Shown: piece after piece, positions 54,964 to 64,000 of the stretch
How the letters are laid out: each line of letters opens with the position of its first letter
How positions within the stretch are numbered: position 1 is the first letter of the stretch
Assembly: GCF_000725425.1 (NCBI RefSeq)
Contig: NZ_CP006019.1
Span: forward strand, 496,001 to 560,000
Source of the DNA: Palaeococcus pacificus DY20341
Lineage (GTDB): Archaea > Methanobacteriota_B > Thermococci > Thermococcales > Thermococcaceae
Direction of reading: 5' to 3'
Length of the DNA stretch: 64,000 nt
Translations under genes and position numbers: made by a program
The notes under the pieces: generated by a model
What the model was told of the DNA's origin: nothing
Seen by the model: only the letters and a program-made list of their open reading frames with translations
Database searches by the model: none

Positions 54964-55920
54964 AACCGGTGAAATTCAAAGCCCACCACGGGGGCTCTCG
55001 TGAGGAAGGCCTCTTGGATTTCTCGGCTTCACTGAATCCCTATACTCCTCCATGGCTTGATGAGATGTTTAAAAGGGCTAAGGAACTCTCAAGCCGCTAC
55101 CTCTATTGGGAAAAGCTTGAGGAAGAGCTTTCAAACCTGATTGGCGAAAGCATAACGATAACGGCTGGAATCACTGAGGCGTTGTATTTGCTTGGCATCC
55201 TCGCCATGAGGGAAAAGCGCAGGGTGATAATTCCAAGGCACACTTATGAGGAGTACGAGCGAATCTCTAGAATTTTTAATGCCGAAGTTATCAAATGTCC
55301 AAATGAGCCGAAGAAACTTGCTGAGCTCGTGGAGAAGGGGAGTATAGTTTTTTTTCTGCAACCCAAACAATCCTGACGGCCGTTATTATTCCCCAAGAGA
55401 GCTTAAACCGCTTATCGATGCCGTTGAGGATAAAGAAGCTCTCCTCCTTCTTGATGAAGCATTCATAGACTTCGTCAAAAATGCCAAAAGCCCGGAAGGA
55501 GGGAACATCCTAAAGCTGAGAACATTCACGAAGAGCTATGGCCTCCCGGGAATCAGGGTTGGCTACGTCATCGGCTTTGAGGAAGCTTTTAAGAGCGTTA
55601 GAATGCCTTGGAGCATTGGGTCTCTCGGCTACGCCTTCCTCGAATTCATCATAAAAGACGAGTCCCGCTTTTTGAAAGAGACTATGCCTTTGATTTGGAA
55701 GGAAAAGGAGCGGATGGAGAAAGCTTTGGACGTCAAGAGCGACGCCAACTACTTCATCAAGAACGTTGGGGATGCTAAAACCTTCGCCGAAAGTCTGAAG
55801 AAAAAGGGAATCCTAGTGAGGGACTGCTCATCATTTGGGCTCCCAGAATATGTGCGCTTCAGCGTAAGAAAGAAGGAAGAAAACGAAAAGCTGATTGAAG
55901 CTTTTGAGCACTTTCTCTAA
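54957..55920 (+). pseudogene. cobD: Threonine-phosphate decarboxylase CobD, frameshifted at an 8-T tract
   Basis: A PLP enzyme of the HisC/CobD fold, which would make (R)-1-amino-2-propanol phosphate for CbiB. The frame from ATG 54957 (after GGAGGTG) runs to a stop at 55374-55376 and gives 139 residues. The rest of the family (NPDG motif, LLDEAFIDF, TFTKSYGLPGIRVGY with the PLP Lys, and the C-terminus) is in the next frame and ends at 55920. Removing one T of the tract at 55348-55355 restores a 320-residue protein with FFCNPNNPDG. It could be sequencing error, strain mutation, or transcriptional slippage. Confidence 0.85.
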
Positions 55921-56420
55921 AGCATCTTTCCGACGCTCTCAAAAGCTTCCAGTGAAATTCTCTCCCTCGCTATTTTTTCCGCGGTCCTCTTCCTTATGTT
56001 TTCCTCGACCTCCTCAGGCTTTCCAAAGAATATTGCTTCGGCTGGGCACATTTCGCTGCACGCTGGTGCTAGGCCAAGCTCCCTCCTATTGGCACACATA
56101 TTACACTTTGTAACCGCTTTTACTTTCACATCGAAGCTTGGGACTCCAAAGGGGCACACCGCCAAGCACATATAACAGCCAATGCACTTGTCCGGGTCTA
56201 TTATTACAGCTCCATCGTGGTCTTTATATATCGCTCCTGAAGGACAAACATCCATACATGGGGCTTTCTCACAGTGGCGGCAGTTTATTGGAATTGGAAG
56301 GCCGCTCATGGTATAGTAAATCTTTATGTTGGGCTTCCCGTGGTGAAGGAACTCACAAATCCCTTGGCATGTCTCACATCCTATGCACAAGCTGTAGTCA
56401 ACGTGAAGGACCCTCTTCAT
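55917..56420 (-). CDS. Polyferredoxin-type electron-transfer subunit (HydN/CooF-like)
   Basis: 167 residues with four 4Fe-4S clusters: CIGCETCQGIC (first), CRHCEKAPCMDVCP, CIGCYMCLAVCP, and CNMC plus CSEMCP. The layout is like HydN, CooF and the ferredoxin subunits of formate dehydrogenase and DMSO reductase-type enzymes. Last gene of the formate operon. ATG at 56420 follows GGGGAGGTG. The second such subunit lies at 57870. Overlaps the cobD frame by 4 bp on the opposite strand. Carries electrons between formate dehydrogenase and the partner enzyme. Confidence 0.9.
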   Translation of the reverse strand: MKRVLHVDYSLCIGCETCQGICEFLHHGKPNIKIYYTMSGLPIPINCRHCEKAPCMDVCPSGAIYKDHDGAVIIDPDKCIGCYMCLAVCPFGVPSFDVKVKAVTKCNMCANRRELGLAPACSEMCPAEAIFFGKPEEVEENIRKRTAEKIARERISLEAFESVGKML

Positions 56421-56425
56421 TCCAA

Positions 56426-57481
56426 TCACCTCCCCTCAAGCCAAAGGTGTATGCTTTCAGCCGCTAAGAGACCATCTAAAACTGCCCTACCAACTTTTGA
56501 TGGTCCCATAACAACATCTCCAGCCGCAAAGACCCCCTCTCTGCTCGTCATATGCCTTGCATCAACTAGTATGTTCCCCCACTTGTCCACAGCTATTCCC
56601 GCTTGCTCGCTAAATGGGGGTGTGGGCTTTTGTCCAACGGCGAATATAACGTAGTCTACATCTATTTGGAAGTTTGAGCCCTCTATGGGTATGGGCCTTC
56701 TCCTTCCGCTCTCGTCTGGCTCACTTAGCTTACACTTTTGCAGTTCAATAGCCCTAACCTTGCCGTTCTCACCAATAATGCGAACTGGCATAGTCAGCTC
56801 GAGCCACTTAACCCCCCTCCTTTGGAGGAGGTTAATCTCATAGGGACCAGCTGGGGCCTCTCTTATCGTCCTCCTATAGCTCAAATAAACCTTCTCCGCA
56901 CCGAGAAGCACACTTTCCATGGCGGCATCAACAGCTGTGTGGCCTGCTCCGATGACCATTACTCTCTTTCCTTCCACAGGCGTTACATTGTCCCAGCTCA
57001 AGTGGCCGAGCTTTGCGCTTTTTATCCTGAAGAGATAGCCCAAAGCGGGATAAACTCCCTCTAACTCGGCTCCTTCTATTTTTGGAATTGTTGACTTCCA
57101 AGTGCCTGTTGAAATTAGAACGGCATCATAGCTTTCAACGAGCTCATTGAAATTCACGACGTTTTCAACAAAGTCGTCTCCTTCCTCTTTTTCGTTTCCA
57201 AAGGCAACTTTCGTGTTTGGGTAAAATTTAACTTCGAAGACGTTTTCAAGCTCCCTGTATCCGTTTCTAACACGATAGATGGGAATCCTAAATTCAGGGA
57301 TTCCAAAGAGCATTAAGCCACCTGGCTCTGGAAGCTTGTCATAAACGTGAACCTCATGACCGTGACACACTAAATAGCCAGCCGCACTGAGTCCAGCTGG
57401 ACCACCACCAATTATGGCGACTTTTTTCCCAGTAGGTTTTGGTTTTTCCCTACATAGAAATGCAAATCTCATTCCACTCAT
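56426..57481 (-). CDS. FAD/NAD(P)H oxidoreductase subunit (GltA/glutamate-synthase-beta-like)
   Basis: 351 residues. Two nucleotide-binding folds are visible: VAIIGGGPAGLSAAGYL (FAD) and RVMVIGAGHTAVDAAMESVLLGA (NAD(P)H), with YEINLLQRRGVKWLELTMPVR and a C-terminal GVFAAGDVVMGPSKVGRAVLDGLLAA. It resembles the small subunit of glutamate synthase and its relatives (sulfide dehydrogenase, NfnL), but the N-terminal Fe-S domain is absent; the ferredoxin genes on both sides probably supply it. ATG at 57481 follows GGGGTG. Placed in the formate operon, it suggests formate electrons can reach NAD(P). Confidence 0.88.
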   Translation of the reverse strand: MSGMRFAFLCREKPKPTGKKVAIIGGGPAGLSAAGYLVCHGHEVHVYDKLPEPGGLMLFGIPEFRIPIYRVRNGYRELENVFEVKFYPNTKVAFGNEKEEGDDFVENVVNFNELVESYDAVLISTGTWKSTIPKIEGAELEGVYPALGYLFRIKSAKLGHLSWDNVTPVEGKRVMVIGAGHTAVDAAMESVLLGAEKVYLSYRRTIREAPAGPYEINLLQRRGVKWLELTMPVRIIGENGKVRAIELQKCKLSEPDESGRRRPIPIEGSNFQIDVDYVIFAVGQKPTPPFSEQAGIAVDKWGNILVDARHMTSREGVFAAGDVVMGPSKVGRAVLDGLLAAESIHLWLEGR

Positions 57482-57486
57482 AGCCA

Positions 57487-57864
57487 TCACCCCAAATAAC
57501 CCTCATATTTTGTCGCTACATCAAAAATCTTCTTTCTTTTACACTCATCACATAAATAAGCTATCTGTGAGTCCTCTCCCATACTTTCGAGCTTTTTCGA
57601 TAAATATTCAGCTTCTTTAAGCACATGCTTAAGCTTCTTCCCACATCTTGCGCAGTGTGCATACTCAAAGAGTAATGTGGCATCATCGGGCTTTCCATCT
57701 ATTGCATGGGTAGGACAGGCATCGTTGCACTCGTATTCGCATTCGCCGCACTTCGCGGGCTCAAAGACTATCTTTCTAACCTCCTCTTCAAAAATTGAAA
57801 TGGCGTTGAAGGGGCACGCCTTTGCGCAGATGCCGCAGCCAATGCAGAGGCTTTCTTTTAGCAT
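57487..57864 (-). CDS. 4Fe-4S ferredoxin-type subunit with Cys-rich tail
   Basis: 125 residues. Two clusters at the N-terminus: CIGCGICAKACPFNAIS and CGECEYECNDACPTHAI. The C-terminal part carries a second Cys set (CARCGKKL and CDECKRKK) which looks like a zinc or rubredoxin-like site. It fits between formate dehydrogenase ferredoxin and the GltA-like flavoprotein as an electron carrier. ATG at 57864 follows GGGTGAGGGG. It is separated from its neighbours by only 5 bp on each side, so it is cotranscribed. Confidence 0.88.
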   Translation of the reverse strand: MLKESLCIGCGICAKACPFNAISIFEEEVRKIVFEPAKCGECEYECNDACPTHAIDGKPDDATLLFEYAHCARCGKKLKHVLKEAEYLSKKLESMGEDSQIAYLCDECKRKKIFDVATKYEGYLG

Positions 57865-57869
57865 GCCCC

Positions 57870-58355
57870 TCACCCGAAGAGTGCTATTTTTTCTATGGCC
57901 TTTCTCTGAGCTTCAACTATACGCTCTGCTTTGCGCTTTCTCTTTTCTTCCATGATCTCATTTATTTCACCAAATACGAGTGCATCTGTTGGACAAACGC
58001 TTGCACACAGCGGGAGATTCCCCTCCTTTCTTCTGTCAGCACAGAGATTGCACTTGACGGCAAGCTCCTTGATCGGGTCAACTATTGGAATGGCGTAAGG
58101 ACAAACGGCTGAGCACATGTAGCAGCCAATACACTTCTCTTCGTTGATTATTACCGCGCCATCTCCGTCTCTTTTTATGGCCTTTGTTGGGCACACCTCT
58201 ATACATGGGGCTTTCTCACAGTGGCGGCAGTTCAGCGGAACGGCCATATCTTCAAACTCATAAACACTTATGAAGGAAATTCCATGTTCTTTTTCACAGG
58301 CTACCTCACACGCCTTACAGGCTATGCACCTTCCCAAGTTTATGAAGAGCTTCAT
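57870..58355 (-). CDS. fdhB: Formate dehydrogenase iron-sulfur subunit
   Basis: 161 residues with four 4Fe-4S clusters: CIACKACEVAC, CRHCEKAPCIEVCP, CIGCYMCSAVCP, and CNLC plus CASVCP. Immediately downstream (1 bp) of fdhA, the position of the ferredoxin partner in other archaeal formate dehydrogenases. Similar to the dicluster protein at 55917, so a duplication is likely. GGTGATGTG precedes the ATG. The helical tail is rich in Lys/Glu. Confidence 0.9.
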   Translation of the reverse strand: MKLFINLGRCIACKACEVACEKEHGISFISVYEFEDMAVPLNCRHCEKAPCIEVCPTKAIKRDGDGAVIINEEKCIGCYMCSAVCPYAIPIVDPIKELAVKCNLCADRRKEGNLPLCASVCPTDALVFGEINEIMEEKRKRKAERIVEAQRKAIEKIALFG

Positions 58356-58356
58356 C

Positions 58357-60390
58357 TCACATCACCTTCTCCACTCTACATGCACTCACCTTAAGTTCGG
58401 GTATCTTAGCTTCGGGATCAAGAACGTCGTTTGTCAGAACGTTGGCTCCCCAGTGCCACGGTACTCCAATTACACCTTCGCCAATGCGCTTCGTAATCTT
58501 AGCTTTGCACTCATAAGAACCGCGCCTCGTCACAATCCTAATCTTATCCCCGCTCTCAATTCCAAGCTTTTGGGCATCTTTTGGATTAATTTCCGCGTAA
58601 GCTTCGCCCCATCTTTTGGTGAGTGCTTTACTCCTTCCACTCATTGTGACCGTGTGGTACTGTCCCACAACTCTAAAAGTCGTCAGCATGAAAGGATATT
58701 CCTCATCGGGGAGCTCTGCCGGTGGCTTGAATTCCACAGGAATTATGTTTGCCTTTCCATCTGGTGTGGCAAAGCTCTCCACATGCAAGCGCTTTGTTCC
58801 GGGGTGGTCTTCGCTTGGGCATGGCCATTGAATTCCCTCAACATCGCGCTTGAGCCTCTCGGGGGTAATTCCCCTGTACTGGGGTGCCACTAATGCTATT
58901 TCTCTTGTAACGTCCTCGACACTCTCGTAGTCAAACTTTAGGCCAAGAGCTTTGCCGAGCATTGTTAGTATTTCCCAATCGGGTTTAGCTTCCTCTGGTG
59001 GCTCGATAGCTTTGAAGTTCCACTGGACTCTTCTTTCGCTCGCTGTAAAGGAGCCCTCTTTCTCGGCATAAGCGGCTGCAGGTAGAATATAGTGGGCGTA
59101 TTTAGCAGTCTCCGTTAGAAAGATATCCTGCACGACGAGAAGCTCGAGCTCTTTCAAAGCTTCAATCACGTGCTTTGTGTTGGGGTCGCTCACTACAGGG
59201 TTTTCACCCATTATATAGAGTGCCTTAATCTCACCTTCATGAGCTTTGTTTATTATTTCAGGAATTGTTAAACCTGGCTCGCTTGGGAGCTCTTCGACGC
59301 CCCAAATCTCTGCCACGCGCTTTCTCTTCTCATCGTCGGTGACCTTTTGGTAGCCGGGCAAGACATTTGGCAAAGCGCCCATATCACAAGCTCCCTGCAC
59401 GTTGTTTTGGCCGCGCATTGGGAATAAGCCGGTTCCTTCTTTGCCCACATAGCCACATATTAGTCCCAAGTCAGCTAAAGCTTTAACATTGCCAGTTCCC
59501 GTTATGTGCTGTGTAAGCCCCATGGCCCACATTATTATTCCTCTTCCTGCGGTTGCAAACGTCACGGCGGCTTCTCTAATTAAGTGTGCGGGAATTCCAG
59601 TGATTTTCTCGGCATACTCTGGTGTATATTCCTCAACAACCTTAATGAGCTTCTCAAAGCCTTTAGTTCTCGAGAACACGAACTTCTTGTCGTAGAGGCG
59701 CTCCTTTATTATGACGTGCATCATGGCGTTCGCTAAAGCTATATCGGTTCCAAGCCTTAGTGGGAGATGCATATCAGCGAACCATGCTGTTTTCGTCTTC
59801 CTCGGGTCAACTACAATTATTTTAGCACCGTTGTCTTTTGCTCTCAAAATGTAGCGCATCAAAACAGGATGGGTCTCTGCTGGATTGTAGCCCCAAATAA
59901 GGAGAACTTTTGCCTTTGGTATGTCATCATAGGAACCGCTTTGAGCTGCTGCCCCAACAGTTTGAGCTAAGCCTGCTACGGTTGAAGCGTGACAAAGCCG
60001 TGCACAGTGGTCAACGTTGTTTGTGCCGAGGATACGTGCTATCTTTTGGAGGAGGTAGTTCTCTTCATTTGAACATCTTGCACTAGAGAAGAAGCCTAAA
60101 GCATCTGGGCCGTATTTATCTCTGATTTCTAAAATCTTCTCAGCAATCTCTTTTATGGCCTGTTCCCAGCTTATTTCCTCGAAGCCGTTTTCGGTGCGCT
60201 TTAGCGGCTTTGTAAGTCTATCGTTATGTCTGAGGAAGTCTAAAGCGGTTAGGCCTTTAGGGCACAGCTTCCCCTCATTAACGCCACCCTCGTAAATCTC
60301 TACCTCTACGGGCTCTCCGTTGAGGGTCTTTATGTAAAACCTACACCCCATCCCACAGTAGGGGCACAGACCAATTGTGAGCTTTTCCAT
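58357..60390 (-). CDS. fdhA: Formate dehydrogenase catalytic subunit, Cys-type molybdo/tungsto-bis-MGD enzyme
   Basis: 677 residues. Oxidises formate to CO2. An N-terminal 4Fe-4S site (C9, C12, C16 and C43) precedes the bis-MGD binding domains: GPDALGFFSSARCSNEENYLLQKIARIL, DHCARLCHASTV, GYNPAETHPVL, GQNNVQGACDMG and TTFRVVGQYHTVTMSGRSKAL. The metal ligand is Cys133 where E. coli FdhF has selenocysteine; His134 and downstream Arg residues are conserved. ATG at 60390 follows GGGTGGTGAAG. Its operon starts with the formate channel gene, 68 bp upstream, and TATA-like elements in the gap could allow extra transcription. Confidence 0.95.
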   Translation of the reverse strand: MEKLTIGLCPYCGMGCRFYIKTLNGEPVEVEIYEGGVNEGKLCPKGLTALDFLRHNDRLTKPLKRTENGFEEISWEQAIKEIAEKILEIRDKYGPDALGFFSSARCSNEENYLLQKIARILGTNNVDHCARLCHASTVAGLAQTVGAAAQSGSYDDIPKAKVLLIWGYNPAETHPVLMRYILRAKDNGAKIIVVDPRKTKTAWFADMHLPLRLGTDIALANAMMHVIIKERLYDKKFVFSRTKGFEKLIKVVEEYTPEYAEKITGIPAHLIREAAVTFATAGRGIIMWAMGLTQHITGTGNVKALADLGLICGYVGKEGTGLFPMRGQNNVQGACDMGALPNVLPGYQKVTDDEKRKRVAEIWGVEELPSEPGLTIPEIINKAHEGEIKALYIMGENPVVSDPNTKHVIEALKELELLVVQDIFLTETAKYAHYILPAAAYAEKEGSFTASERRVQWNFKAIEPPEEAKPDWEILTMLGKALGLKFDYESVEDVTREIALVAPQYRGITPERLKRDVEGIQWPCPSEDHPGTKRLHVESFATPDGKANIIPVEFKPPAELPDEEYPFMLTTFRVVGQYHTVTMSGRSKALTKRWGEAYAEINPKDAQKLGIESGDKIRIVTRRGSYECKAKITKRIGEGVIGVPWHWGANVLTNDVLDPEAKIPELKVSACRVEKVM

Positions 60391-60458
60391 CTTCACCACC
60401 CATTTGCATTTTTATGTTAAAATTTAAAAAGTTTTGGAAAAATTTAAACAAGTTTATG

Positions 60459-61451
60459 TTAAACCACTCTCTTCCTCACTGTATATGTCACGCCAATTCC
60501 GTAAATGCTTATAGCTAGGGGTACTGCCCAGAGAGCTACTTTTCCAAAGCCATTTAGCACGTAAGCTATTCCTGCAGGTATAAAGACCATGAGCACGGCG
60601 AAAATTGCTAGGAGTGTCAGGAAGTCAGTGATCTCTTTGAATGCATTCTCACCATCAGCTAAGTACCAGTGGTAAAATCCAACAAAGAGAAAGCCCCCAA
60701 CGGCGTTTCCAATGGTGACGGGTATTATGTTCTTGAAAAAGTCGAGCCATGTAATGGCGTAGTTGCTTGCAAATATAGCACTCGTAATAGCCCACATATT
60801 TGCTATGCTGTGCTCAAATCCAATAGCAACGAATGCAAATATTGGGAACCATGTGACGAGGACTTTTCCGGCAGTGTCCTTTGCTCTAACATAGAGCCAT
60901 ATGGCAACGTTAACAAGCCAGTTACAGCCTACAGCAAGCCAAAACGCCTTCCAAGGAGTTATGTTAACTTTGTATGCTCCTATGCCCACAAGAACATCCT
61001 TGAAGAGTCCACTTGCGAATAAGCCTGTGCCGTAGATTGCTAAGAACGCCAAAAATACGCTACCTATAAAGTTGCCTGCATAGCTACCGACCCAATTGTA
61101 AAGGACGTCCTTAATCTCAACCTTCTTTGTTAGCTTGGATATAGACACAATTTGGGCATTGCCTGTCCAGAGGTCGGCTCCACCGACTAGAACGGCTATA
61201 AGTCCCACAGGGAATACTGCACCTAAGAGGAGCTTGAATAGCGATGTATTTGGAAATGTCCCAAACTTTGAGTGGAAGCTTGCACTGGCCACTATCGCCA
61301 GCATGAATCCGAAAGCAATGTAGGCACCGGCCATGAAGCCTGCAAAGAGGAGCTTTGAGGGTGTGGCTTTGGTTTTAGTGTATCCTATATTGGAACAAGC
61401 ATCTACGCCTTCATGCACATTATATAGGACACATGTACAATTATCTTCCAT
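60459..61451 (-). CDS. focA: Formate/nitrite transporter family channel (FocA-like)
   Basis: 330 residues. Six or more membrane helices of the FNT fold. Family segments are AGFMAGAYIAFGFMLAIVASA near the N-terminus, FPVGLIAVLVGGADLWTGNAQIVSISKLTKKVEIKDVLYNWVGSYAGNFIGS, VGCNWLVNVAIWLYVRAKDTAGKVLVTWFPIFAFVAIGFEHSIANMW and NIIPVTIGNAVGGFLFVGFYHW. The pore His and selectivity Phe lie in the EHSIAN region. It would import or export formate. ATG at 61451 follows GAGGTGG. First gene of the formate operon; its divergent promoter region is shared with hydrogenase. Confidence 0.95.
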   Translation of the reverse strand: MEDNCTCVLYNVHEGVDACSNIGYTKTKATPSKLLFAGFMAGAYIAFGFMLAIVASASFHSKFGTFPNTSLFKLLLGAVFPVGLIAVLVGGADLWTGNAQIVSISKLTKKVEIKDVLYNWVGSYAGNFIGSVFLAFLAIYGTGLFASGLFKDVLVGIGAYKVNITPWKAFWLAVGCNWLVNVAIWLYVRAKDTAGKVLVTWFPIFAFVAIGFEHSIANMWAITSAIFASNYAITWLDFFKNIIPVTIGNAVGGFLFVGFYHWYLADGENAFKEITDFLTLLAIFAVLMVFIPAGIAYVLNGFGKVALWAVPLAISIYGIGVTYTVRKRVV

Positions 61452-61508: not shown

Positions 61509-61551
61509 GTTTAAAAGCCTTTTTTAAACGCCCTTTGTTCAACCTAAGGTG
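61509..61551 (-). promoter_or_regulatory. focA-fdh promoter: SurR-like box and TATA
   Basis: On the minus strand CACCTTAGGTT (61551-61541) is followed by 20 nt and then AGGCTTTTAAAC (61520-61509), the TATA region. Transcription would start near 61488, leaving a leader of about 37 nt before the focA ATG. The box fits ATTn3CACn5GTT, close to the SurR consensus GTTn3AACn5GTT. The same box, at the same spacing, precedes the divergent hydrogenase operon. Promoter role is inferred. Confidence 0.65.
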
Positions 61552-61614
61552 CATAATTGCTTGTTTAGCAAAATAGAGAACATTAACGTTGAATTTGAAT
61601 CTTTGAAGTAATTT

Positions 61615-61645
61615 TATATGCATTAATGATACATTTATGCATATA
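61615..61645. promoter_or_regulatory. Perfect 9-bp inverted repeat between divergent operons
   Basis: TATATGCAT (61615-61623) and ATGCATATA (61637-61645) are exact reverse complements with a 13-nt spacer. It lies near the midpoint between the two promoter boxes (centres at 61546 and 61728). It could be a regulator site shared by both operons or a secondary structure. Confidence 0.55.
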
Positions 61646-61722
61646 TTAACTTCCAGTGATAAATTTAGCGTTATCTGATTTTAAATTCGTAGCACCAAAT
61701 CTTTCGCAATTAACGCATTCTT

Positions 61723-61766
61723 AACCTTAGGTTGATAAACTAAGGATTTAGAAAGGCTTTTTTAAC
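61723..61766 (+). promoter_or_regulatory. Hydrogenase operon promoter: SurR-like palindrome and TATA
   Basis: AACCTTAGGTT (61723-61733) is an exact odd palindrome. Exactly 20 nt later AGGCTTTTTTAAC (61754-61766) forms the TATA region. Extended, ATTn3AACn5GTT matches SurR's GTTn3AACn5GTT with one mismatch. Expected start of transcription near 61790, about 53 nt upstream of the hydB GTG. A weaker CTAAGG half site is at 61739-61744. Confidence 0.68.
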
Positions 61767-61842
61767 TTTCAATTGAGCTAGTCTCAGGGATGGATAGAAT
61801 TGAGCATATGAACGAGGATATACATCTACTGGGGTGATAAAA

Positions 61843-62946
61843 GTGAGATATGTTAAGCTTCCAAAAGAAAATATTTACGAATTCCTTGGTCGTTTGAAGG
61901 AATACGGGACACTTTACGCTCCCGTCAAAATTTCAGAAAAGTTTTATGACTTCAGGGAAGTCGATGACGTCAAAAAGGTTGAGTTCCATTACAACAGGAC
62001 TATAATGCCGCCAAAGAAGTTCTTCTTCCTTCCAAGGGAGAAGCTCTTTGAGTTCAGTATTTCAAAAGCAGAGTACAAAGAAACGATTGAAAACGTTGAG
62101 CCATTTGTACTCTTTGGACTTCACGCATGTGATATCTTTGGGCTGAAGATACTTGATACTGTCTATTTAGACGAATTCCCAGACAAGTACTACAAAGTAA
62201 GAAGGGAAAAGGGCATCATCATCGGAATTAGCTGTATGCCTGATGAATACTGTTTCTGTAACCTCAGAGAGACAGATTTTGCGGACGATGGGTTCGATCT
62301 CTTTTTACATGAGCTCCCAGATGGATGGCTCGTTAGAGTTGGCACCCCAATAGGCCACAGAATTGTGGATAAAAACATAAAGCTCTTTGAAGAAGTCACC
62401 ACTCAGGACGTCTGCAACTTTAGAGACCTTGAGAAGAAGAGAGCTGAGGCATTTAAGTATCATGAAGACTGGGGCAACCTTCGCTATCTGCTCGAGCTCG
62501 AAATGGAGCACCCAATATGGAATGAGCAGAGCGAGCTTTGTTTAGCCTGTGGTAACTGTAACACTACATGCCCAACTTGTAGATGTTACGAGGTTCAAGA
62601 CATTCCAAGCCTTGATGGCGATACAGGATATAGGGAGAGAAGATGGGATTCCTGTCAATTAAGAAGCCACGGCTTAGTTGCTGGAAACCACAACTTCAGG
62701 CCCACAAAGAAGGATCGCTTCATGAACCGCTACCTATGTAAGAACTCTTACAACGAGAAGCTCGGTATGAGCTTCTGTGTAGGATGTGGAAGGTGTACAT
62801 ACTTCTGCCCTGCTGGTATAAGCTTTGTTGAGAACTTGAGGAGAATAATGGGGATTGAAGATAAGAGCTGTCCCTCAGAGATTAGTGAGGAAATTCCAAA
62901 GAGGGGATTTGCTTACGCAAGTGATGTGAGAGGTGAGGACATATGA
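61843..62946 (+). CDS. hydB: Cytosolic NiFe hydrogenase (sulfhydrogenase) beta subunit
   Basis: 367 residues. Iron-sulfur subunit that relays electrons between the flavin subunit and the small hydrogenase subunit in the heterotetrameric (beta-gamma-delta-alpha) soluble enzyme of Thermococcales. Two C-terminal 4Fe-4S motifs: [14 protein letters not shown] and [13 protein letters not shown]-terminal half contains [25 protein letters not shown] and conserved HPIW. GTG at 61843 follows GGGGTGAT at 5 nt. A GTG at 61834 is within that site. First gene of a plus-strand operon sharing a regulatory region with the formate operon; overlaps hydG by 4 bp. Confidence 0.96.
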
Positions 62947-63794
62947 ACGACAACCCTTACGCATTAGAAAAAGCCAAAGTTTTGAAAGTTTACACTTTAA
63001 CAGAAACAGAAAAACTCTTCCTCTTTAGATTTGAAAACCCAGAGATAGCTGAGAGCTGGACATTTAAGCCCGGTCAATTCGTCCAATTAACAATCCCCGG
63101 TGTTGGAGAAGTACCAATTAGTATATGTTCTTCTCCAATGAGGAAGGGATTCTTTGAGCTCTGTATTAGAAGAATTGGAAGAGTAACTAATGTAGTTCAT
63201 AAACTAAAGCCAGGAGACACCGTCCTTGTTAGGGGGCCATATGGAAACGGTTTCCCAGTTGAGGAGTGGGAAGGCAAGGACTTACTCCTAATAGCAGCTG
63301 GTCTTGGAACAGCTCCCCTAAGAAGCGTATTCTTATACGCAGTGGACAACAGATGGAAGTTTGGAAACATCACATTCATCAACACCGCCCGTTATGGAAA
63401 GGACTTGCTCTTCTACAAGGAGCTTGAGGCTATGAAGGACTTAGCTGAGGCTGAGAACATAAAGATAATACAAAGCGTTACACGTGATAAGGAGTGGCCC
63501 GGAAGGAAGGGAAGACCTCAAAACTTCATAGTTGAGGCAAACACAAATCCAAAGAACACTATAGTGACAGTTTGTGGTCCACCAAGAATGTATAAGGCTG
63601 TATTTGAGTATCTCATCAACTATGGATACAGACCAGAGAACATCTTCGTTACACTAGAGAGAAAGATGAAGTGCGGTATTGGAAAGTGCGGGCACTGTAA
63701 CGTTGGAACAAGCACCTCATGGAAATACATATGTAAGGACGGACCTGTGTTTACATACTTCGACATAGTATCAACACCAGGGTTGTTGGACTGA
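62943..63794 (+). CDS. hydG: Cytosolic NiFe hydrogenase gamma subunit (FAD/NAD(P)H, 2Fe-2S)
   Basis: 283 residues, ferredoxin-NADP reductase-like. FAD-binding domain with [25 protein letters not shown] and [11 protein letters not shown](P)H-binding domain with [35 protein letters not shown]; and a C-terminal 2Fe-2S site [15 protein letters not shown] then YICKDGPVF. It accepts electrons from, or gives electrons to, NADP(H). ATG overlaps the hydB stop by 4 bp. Same arrangement as hydB-hydG-hydD-hydA of Pyrococcus. Confidence 0.96.
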
Positions 63795-63804
63795 GGTGGT
63801 AGAA

Positions 63805-64000
63805 ATGGAGAACGGAAAAGTTAGAGTTGGATTTTACGCTCTCACATCATGCTATGGCTGTCAACTACAATTTGCCATGATGGATGAAATAATTCAGCTC
63901 CTCGATAAGGCTAACATTGAGTGCTGGTTCATGGTTGAACGCGATAGCGATGAGGATAGGGAAGTTGATATAGCGTTCATTGAGGGAAGCATTTCAACAG
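63805..64000 (+). CDS. hydD: Cytosolic NiFe hydrogenase delta (small) subunit, N-terminal part
   Basis: Runs off the window's right edge; only 65 residues are visible. The start [29 protein letters not shown] contains the CxxC that binds the proximal 4Fe-4S cluster of the NiFe small subunit, followed by [11 protein letters not shown], the conserved 'VDVAFVEGSI' segment. ATG at 63805 follows GAGGTGGTAG. Next in the operon after hydG; the NiFe large subunit (hydA) is expected outside the window. Confidence 0.95.

Follow-up and report, generated by a model that had tools for sequence, protein, structure and literature searches.

A conserved, probably SurR-type element shared by the divergent formate and hydrogenase promoters of Palaeococcus pacificus

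Background

The closest described counterparts of the promoters analysed here are the SurR-activated promoters of SHII hydrogenases in Thermococcales, which have the same layout of five half-sites (H1 to H5) and the same 9 bp to the TATA box. Their half-sites are near-perfect, whereas the copies described below deviate at H1, H4 and H5 (hydrogenase side) or at H1, H2 and H4 (formate side).

For SHI hydrogenases, "mutated" SurR motifs have been tabulated in T. piezophilus (PMC8595942) and T. barophilus (PMC12162507). The T. barophilus table contains GTTn3AAGn5GTT at 94 bp and GTTn3AAAn5GTT at 257 bp, both credited to SHI (PMC12162507). These sites correspond to the SH-side element and the divergent fdhB-side element of our analysis, respectively, and the latter is found here nine bases away from the TATA box of the fdhB-like operon that diverges from SHI. 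Both reports give single long motifs; the overlapping composite is not described there (PMC12162507, PMC8595942). In T. onnurineus and T. kodakarensis, conservation upstream of divergent Sulf-I and fdh3 was noted (PMC5316973). These are the same loci as treated here, but no motif or regulator was proposed.

As for formate operons, promoters of Group 1 (frh-fhl/nfd-mbh) carry strict SurR sites and SurR control has been proposed for them (PMC10025317). For Groups 2-4, no SurR site is given in this 2023 review, which regards regulation of these operons as unknown (PMC10025317). In contrast to Group 1, the nfd-sh arrangement studied here falls in Groups 2-4.

Results and discussion

Organization of the locus

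The window is a stretch of 64,000 nucleotides of the Palaeococcus pacificus DY20341 genome (1,859,370 bases; G000, contig C1). Positions refer to the window unless marked C1, and further G-numbers are labels of compared Thermococcales genomes.

Two divergent operons, identified from their open reading frames, share one intergenic spacer. The formate (nfd / fdh3-type) operon is on the minus strand. Its first gene (60459-61451; PAP_03230 formate transporter, PMC6981617) encodes a transporter of the formate/nitrite family, 76-77% identical to those of T. onnurineus-type loci. It is followed by fdhA, coding for the catalytic subunit of formate dehydrogenase (58357-60399; PAP_03225, PMC6981617), which has tblastn matches in related divergent loci, and by genes for Fe-S subunits and an NAD(P)-binding subunit (55917-58355; the latter, fdhB-like, at 56426-57490). 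Gene order is the same as in T. onnurineus fdh3 (TON_0538-0543, PMC8965080).

The sh operon on the plus strand begins with the beta subunit of a cytosolic NiFe-hydrogenase of SHI type (61834-62946), and homologues suggest GTG at 61843 as its start. The gamma subunit (62943-63794) and the start of delta (63796 to the window end at 64000) follow. Orthologues of the beta subunit are 75-91% identical across Thermococcales, versus 53-57% for the SHII type. In the P. pacificus paper, the window hydrogenase is named SHII and the one at C1:272762-273751 SHI (PMC6981617); judged by homology and promoter type, these names seem to be the wrong way round compared with those used in T. onnurineus and T. 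barophilus. An nfd operon with formate transporter, divergent from an sh operon across a shared spacer, is the Group 2 nfd-sh arrangement, which also occurs in G025, G028 and G038.

Anatomy of the two promoters

Read in its own direction, each promoter contains an exact CCTTAGGTT-N20-AGGCTTTT, with coordinates 61725-61761 (plus strand) and 61549-61513 (minus strand). The sequence thus confirms the two blocks and the 20-nt distance given in a preliminary description of this DNA. These are the sole two exact matches in the 1.86-Mb genome, both in the fdh/hydrogenase intergenic region. The two 37-mers agree in 27 of their 37 positions, and identity of opposite-strand pairs never exceeded 25 in 300 dinucleotide shuffles of this region. 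The common block is in fact longer than first noted, continuing as ACCTTAGGTTGA ... AAAGGCTTTT.

Identity of the blocks had been taken to argue for one activator. A common activator is supported by the comparisons below, but letter-for-letter identity is not conserved, because the SH-side box of the nearest relative, G002, reads CCTTTGGTT. Exact identity was therefore dropped as the main argument.

Gap-free alignment of SHI, SHII and formate-side promoters reveals one layout, GTT-n3-AAC-n5-GTT-n3-AAC-n5-GTT, then 9 bp and TATA. This composite of five half-sites amounts to two overlapping SurR long motifs with the middle GTT in common. The hydrogenase promoter fits it in 12 of 15 half-site bases (ATT/AAC/GTT/AAA/GAT) and the formate promoter in 11 of 15 (ATT/CAC/GTT/CAA/GTT). 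On the plus strand, the distal motif ATT-n3-AAC-n5-GTT (H1-H3) occupies 61717-61733 and the proximal motif GTT-n3-AAA-n5-GAT (H3-H5) 61731-61747, with spacing as in SHII and mbh1 promoters; BRE-like N9 (TTAGAAAGG) and TATA (CTTTTTTAA) follow at 61748-61765. On the minus strand, the distal motif ATT-n3-CAC-n5-GTT lies at 61541-61557, the proximal motif GTT-n3-CAA-n5-GTT, recognised by alignment, at 61527-61543, and BRE-like N9 (TAAAAAAGG) with TATA (CTTTTAAAC) at 61509-61526.

The boxes had earlier been described as close to the SurR consensus. They are indeed SurR-like half-sites, but the register noted then is only the distal one of two overlapping motifs. Likewise, the spacers, reported as dissimilar, are otherwise unrelated, yet hide a second, TATA-proximal set of half-sites within N20.

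The N9 spacing to TATA is common to SHI, SHII and formate-side promoters. On both strands the proximal motif ends 9 bp before TATA, as it does at SHII, mbh1, hypF, hypE and surR. Since most single-site SurR-type promoters in this genome (mbh1, hypF, hypE, surR) place their last GTT 9 bases before TATA, that is in the H3-H5 position, it is more likely that the activating contact is made around the proximal motif, and AACn5GTT would form a conserved arm upstream of it.

The strict SurR consensus (GTTn3AAC or GTTn3AACn5GTT) is absent in both registers of both window promoters. The nearest approach has one mismatch on the plus strand (ATTn3AACn5GTT, 61717-61733) and two on the minus strand. The window elements are thus best described as putative variant SurR sites rather than strict members. 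Failure of strict GTTn3AAC searches in both registers also explains why the review lists no SurR site for Groups 2-4 (PMC10025317).

Half-site fit in this region alone exceeds chance only weakly. Among 5000 shuffles, 49 gave a fit of at least 12/15 for the plus strand, 356 gave at least 11/15 for the minus strand, and 58 gave both together. For this reason the case rests on comparison with relatives.

Two further features were observed between the operons. A 14-nt inverted repeat, TATATGCATTAATG-aca-CATTTATGCATATA (93%), is located mid-intergenically at 61615-61645; its counterpart in the close relative G002 has a single base changed. Besides, SHI 5' leaders contain a dyad TGxxCA-N9..15-TGxxCA between start site and ribosome-binding site in 57 of 77 genomes (mean after mononucleotide shuffling 0.22). 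This dyad may be bound by a further regulator or fold into an RNA hairpin, and it looks degraded in the window (61801-61824).

Conservation across Thermococcales

Upstream regions of 77 SHI beta genes, from genomes of six genera, were compared (94 Thermococcales genomes searched). Nearly all of these promoters contain AACCTTTGGTTn3AA[T/A/G] followed by TTTCGGGTTTAAAAACGCTTTTTTA or CTAAGGGTTTAGAAAGGCTTTTTTA, together with N9-TATA, and AACCTTTGGTT is nearly invariant among them. The block is kept whatever gene is divergent. As it is present with or without formate genes opposite, the plus-strand block is the ancestral SHI promoter. AAT, AAA or AAG consistently stands at the half-site where SurR sites have AAC.

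The same composite was found in 25 sampled SHII promoters, with 12-15 of 15 half-site bases. Many of these contain two overlapping perfect SurR long motifs, and in all but one of the promoters TATA follows 9 bp after the end of the best-scoring frame.

Formate-side counterparts of the paired block, whose absence from close relatives would have spoken against it, were recovered in formate clusters. The formate-side copy is present in P. pacificus, its close relative G002, and G025, G028, G038 and G034; in the last, the element persists although the formate transporter is situated about 785 kb from SHI. Divergent fdhB-like operons (G086, G090-G092, G023) and fdhA-like genes (G022 and others) carry the element as well. 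H3 and H5 are GTT in all 13 unique formate-side promoters. Distant-type formate transporters (55-57% identity) are found inside longer operons, and no such promoter was detected for them; they were set aside as uninformative.

A different arrangement was observed in G073, G076 and G077, where an fdhA-type gene is divergent from SHI. Here a single, roughly symmetrical block is bracketed by GTT-N9-TATA on both sides, so that one operator may serve both promoters.

These comparisons bear on simpler explanations. Over 45 nt the two arms align as an imperfect inverted repeat with 71% complementarity, which might point to chance likeness or to local inverted duplication of one promoter. However, their spacers are unrelated, both sides are conserved across genera, and G034 has the formate-side element with no SHI next to it; we find this explanation scarcely credible. 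Conservation of both elements in relatives speaks against chance resemblance in particular.

It is also improbable that the block chiefly serves as a strong core promoter (BRE/TATA and A-rich upstream sequence) whose likeness reflects basal needs with no regulator involved. In favour of this, the common AGGCTTTT block is BRE/TATA-like. Unrelated operons, however, keep AAC and GTT half-sites almost unchanged outside BRE, at 10-35 bp upstream of TATA, and promoters in general do not share the motif.

SurR and the genome-wide profile search

Two profiles were run against the whole genome. R1 was built from 33 blocks. The stricter R2 was built from 20 blocks, namely SHI and formate promoters of other species, with SHII and P. 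pacificus left out. Genes next to R2 matches were assigned provisionally from their open reading frames.

The best R2 match is the window plus-strand promoter (1.3e-9). A nickel/cobalt transporter comes second (1.7e-6) and the window minus-strand promoter third (1.5e-5). They are followed by mbh1 (1.5e-4), glutamate dehydrogenase, a proline-oxidase-like gene and a substrate-binding protein, and further by nfn, an nsr-like reductase, hypF, a second mbh/mbx operon, surR/pdo and hypC/D. Altogether 18 matches have E<0.1, of which about half overlap exact GTTn3AACn5GTT. Most of the listed genes are published SurR-type targets. In this genome-wide profile, the window promoters thus group with expected SurR targets, and according to the profile searches the composite is not common to promoters in general.

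A SurR orthologue is encoded at C1:1294532-1295203. It is 63% identical to the query, which we take to be the Pyrococcus furiosus SurR sequence, and contains a CxxC motif (CTEC); strength of the match and neighbourhood support the identification. A perfect SurR site precedes P. pacificus surR. A second ArsR-type protein, 33% identical to the SurR query, is encoded at C1:1215637-1216119 and is a possible paralogous reader of variant sites.

The promoter of the CbiM/NikM-like nickel/cobalt transporter (C1:309810-309853) carries the same composite, as do nickel/cobalt transporter promoters in G001, G013, G023, G077 and G093, which points to joint regulation of nickel supply and NiFe-hydrogenases. 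Composite-like promoters also precede the glutamate dehydrogenase and substrate-binding-protein genes (C1:1749469-1749499 and 685811-685851), which are possible unlisted SurR targets.

The preliminary description had proposed one activator, probably SurR. Despite the lack of a strict consensus, SurR stands as the best candidate, because the composite has the layout of SHII promoters with perfect SurR motifs and because profiles of it bring out the SurR targets expected in this genome. The main competing reading, which we regard as unlikely, is that the AACCTTTGGTTn3AAn... element of SHI, formate and nickel-transporter promoters is read by another activator, sensing for instance H2, NAD(P)H, formate or nickel, or by a SurR-like ArsR paralogue. 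In its favour, SHI promoters preserve the n5 spacer CTTTG and the TTTCGGG/CTAAGGG block far more strictly than SurR needs and almost never have AAC at H4. A nickel/cobalt transporter has the same composite, and the ArsR-type protein at C1:1215637-1216119 could be such a paralogue. On the other hand, SHII promoters of identical geometry form a continuum with perfect SurR motifs, and a profile made without SHII still recovers mbh1, nfn, nsr, hypF and surR/pdo.

Published expression data

Expression studies give a mixed picture. In T. barophilus, shI expression drops when surR is partially deleted and is repressed by sulfur (PMC12162507); coordinates of G086 SHI agree with T. barophilus TERMP_RS02675. 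This decrease in the surR mutant speaks against an activator other than SurR. SHI proteins of T. onnurineus are also lower on sulfur (PMC4463584).

Other results are less easily accommodated, and the mixed sulfur response (PMC6981617, PMC5316973) favours the other activator. In P. pacificus RNA-seq, the hydrogenase adjoining formate genes had no clear sulfur response, but neither did mbh1 fall with sulfur, though a perfect SurR site is present there (PMC6981617). By RNA-seq, T. onnurineus cells in rich sulfur medium contained more Sulf-I and Fdh3 transcript than cells in medium with CO or formate (PMC5316973, PMC8965080). This trend conflicts with simple SurR activation; the media, however, differ in more than sulfur, and for Fdh3 transcript and protein data disagree (PMC8965080).

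Proposed mechanism

Taken together, we consider it likely that a conserved variant SurR element serves both the formate and the SHI operon. The region would then consist of two divergent archaeal promoters, in each of which a composite element for activation by SurR is followed by nine BRE-like bases and TATA. When elemental sulfur is lacking, reduced SurR would bind directly upstream of BRE/TATA and help to recruit TFB/TBP, so that the operon for NADP-dependent formate dehydrogenase and transporter and the SHI operon would be induced jointly. With sulfur present, the CxxC pair would be oxidised and SurR released, and expression of both operons would fall. That the protein is SurR and acts as an activator is presumed by analogy with relatives, and sulfur control of the formate operon is a prediction from sequence. 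Owing to the degenerate half-sites, control is predicted to be weaker or more graded than at the SHII promoter.

A broader scheme is possible, though we hold it only tentatively. One composite operator would link formate and hydrogenase operons throughout the order, as two copies in Group 2 and as a single block in the Group 3-like G073, G076 and G077. It would be read by overlapping SurR dimers or by a second regulator that competes for these half-sites, giving a graded response unlike the on/off switch of mbh.

Implications

With respect to the literature found, a comparison that leaves the original SurR studies aside, three things appear to be new: the overlapping composite, its sharing among SHII, formate and nickel-uptake promoters, and the bidirectional single block. 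The formate operons treated here carry a conserved, degenerate composite of SurR type in activating position, which scans with the strict consensus miss, and the composite may be a better search model for the SurR regulon. If this holds, one sulfur-sensing protein would switch H2 cycling, the uptake and oxidation of formate and probably also the uptake of nickel.
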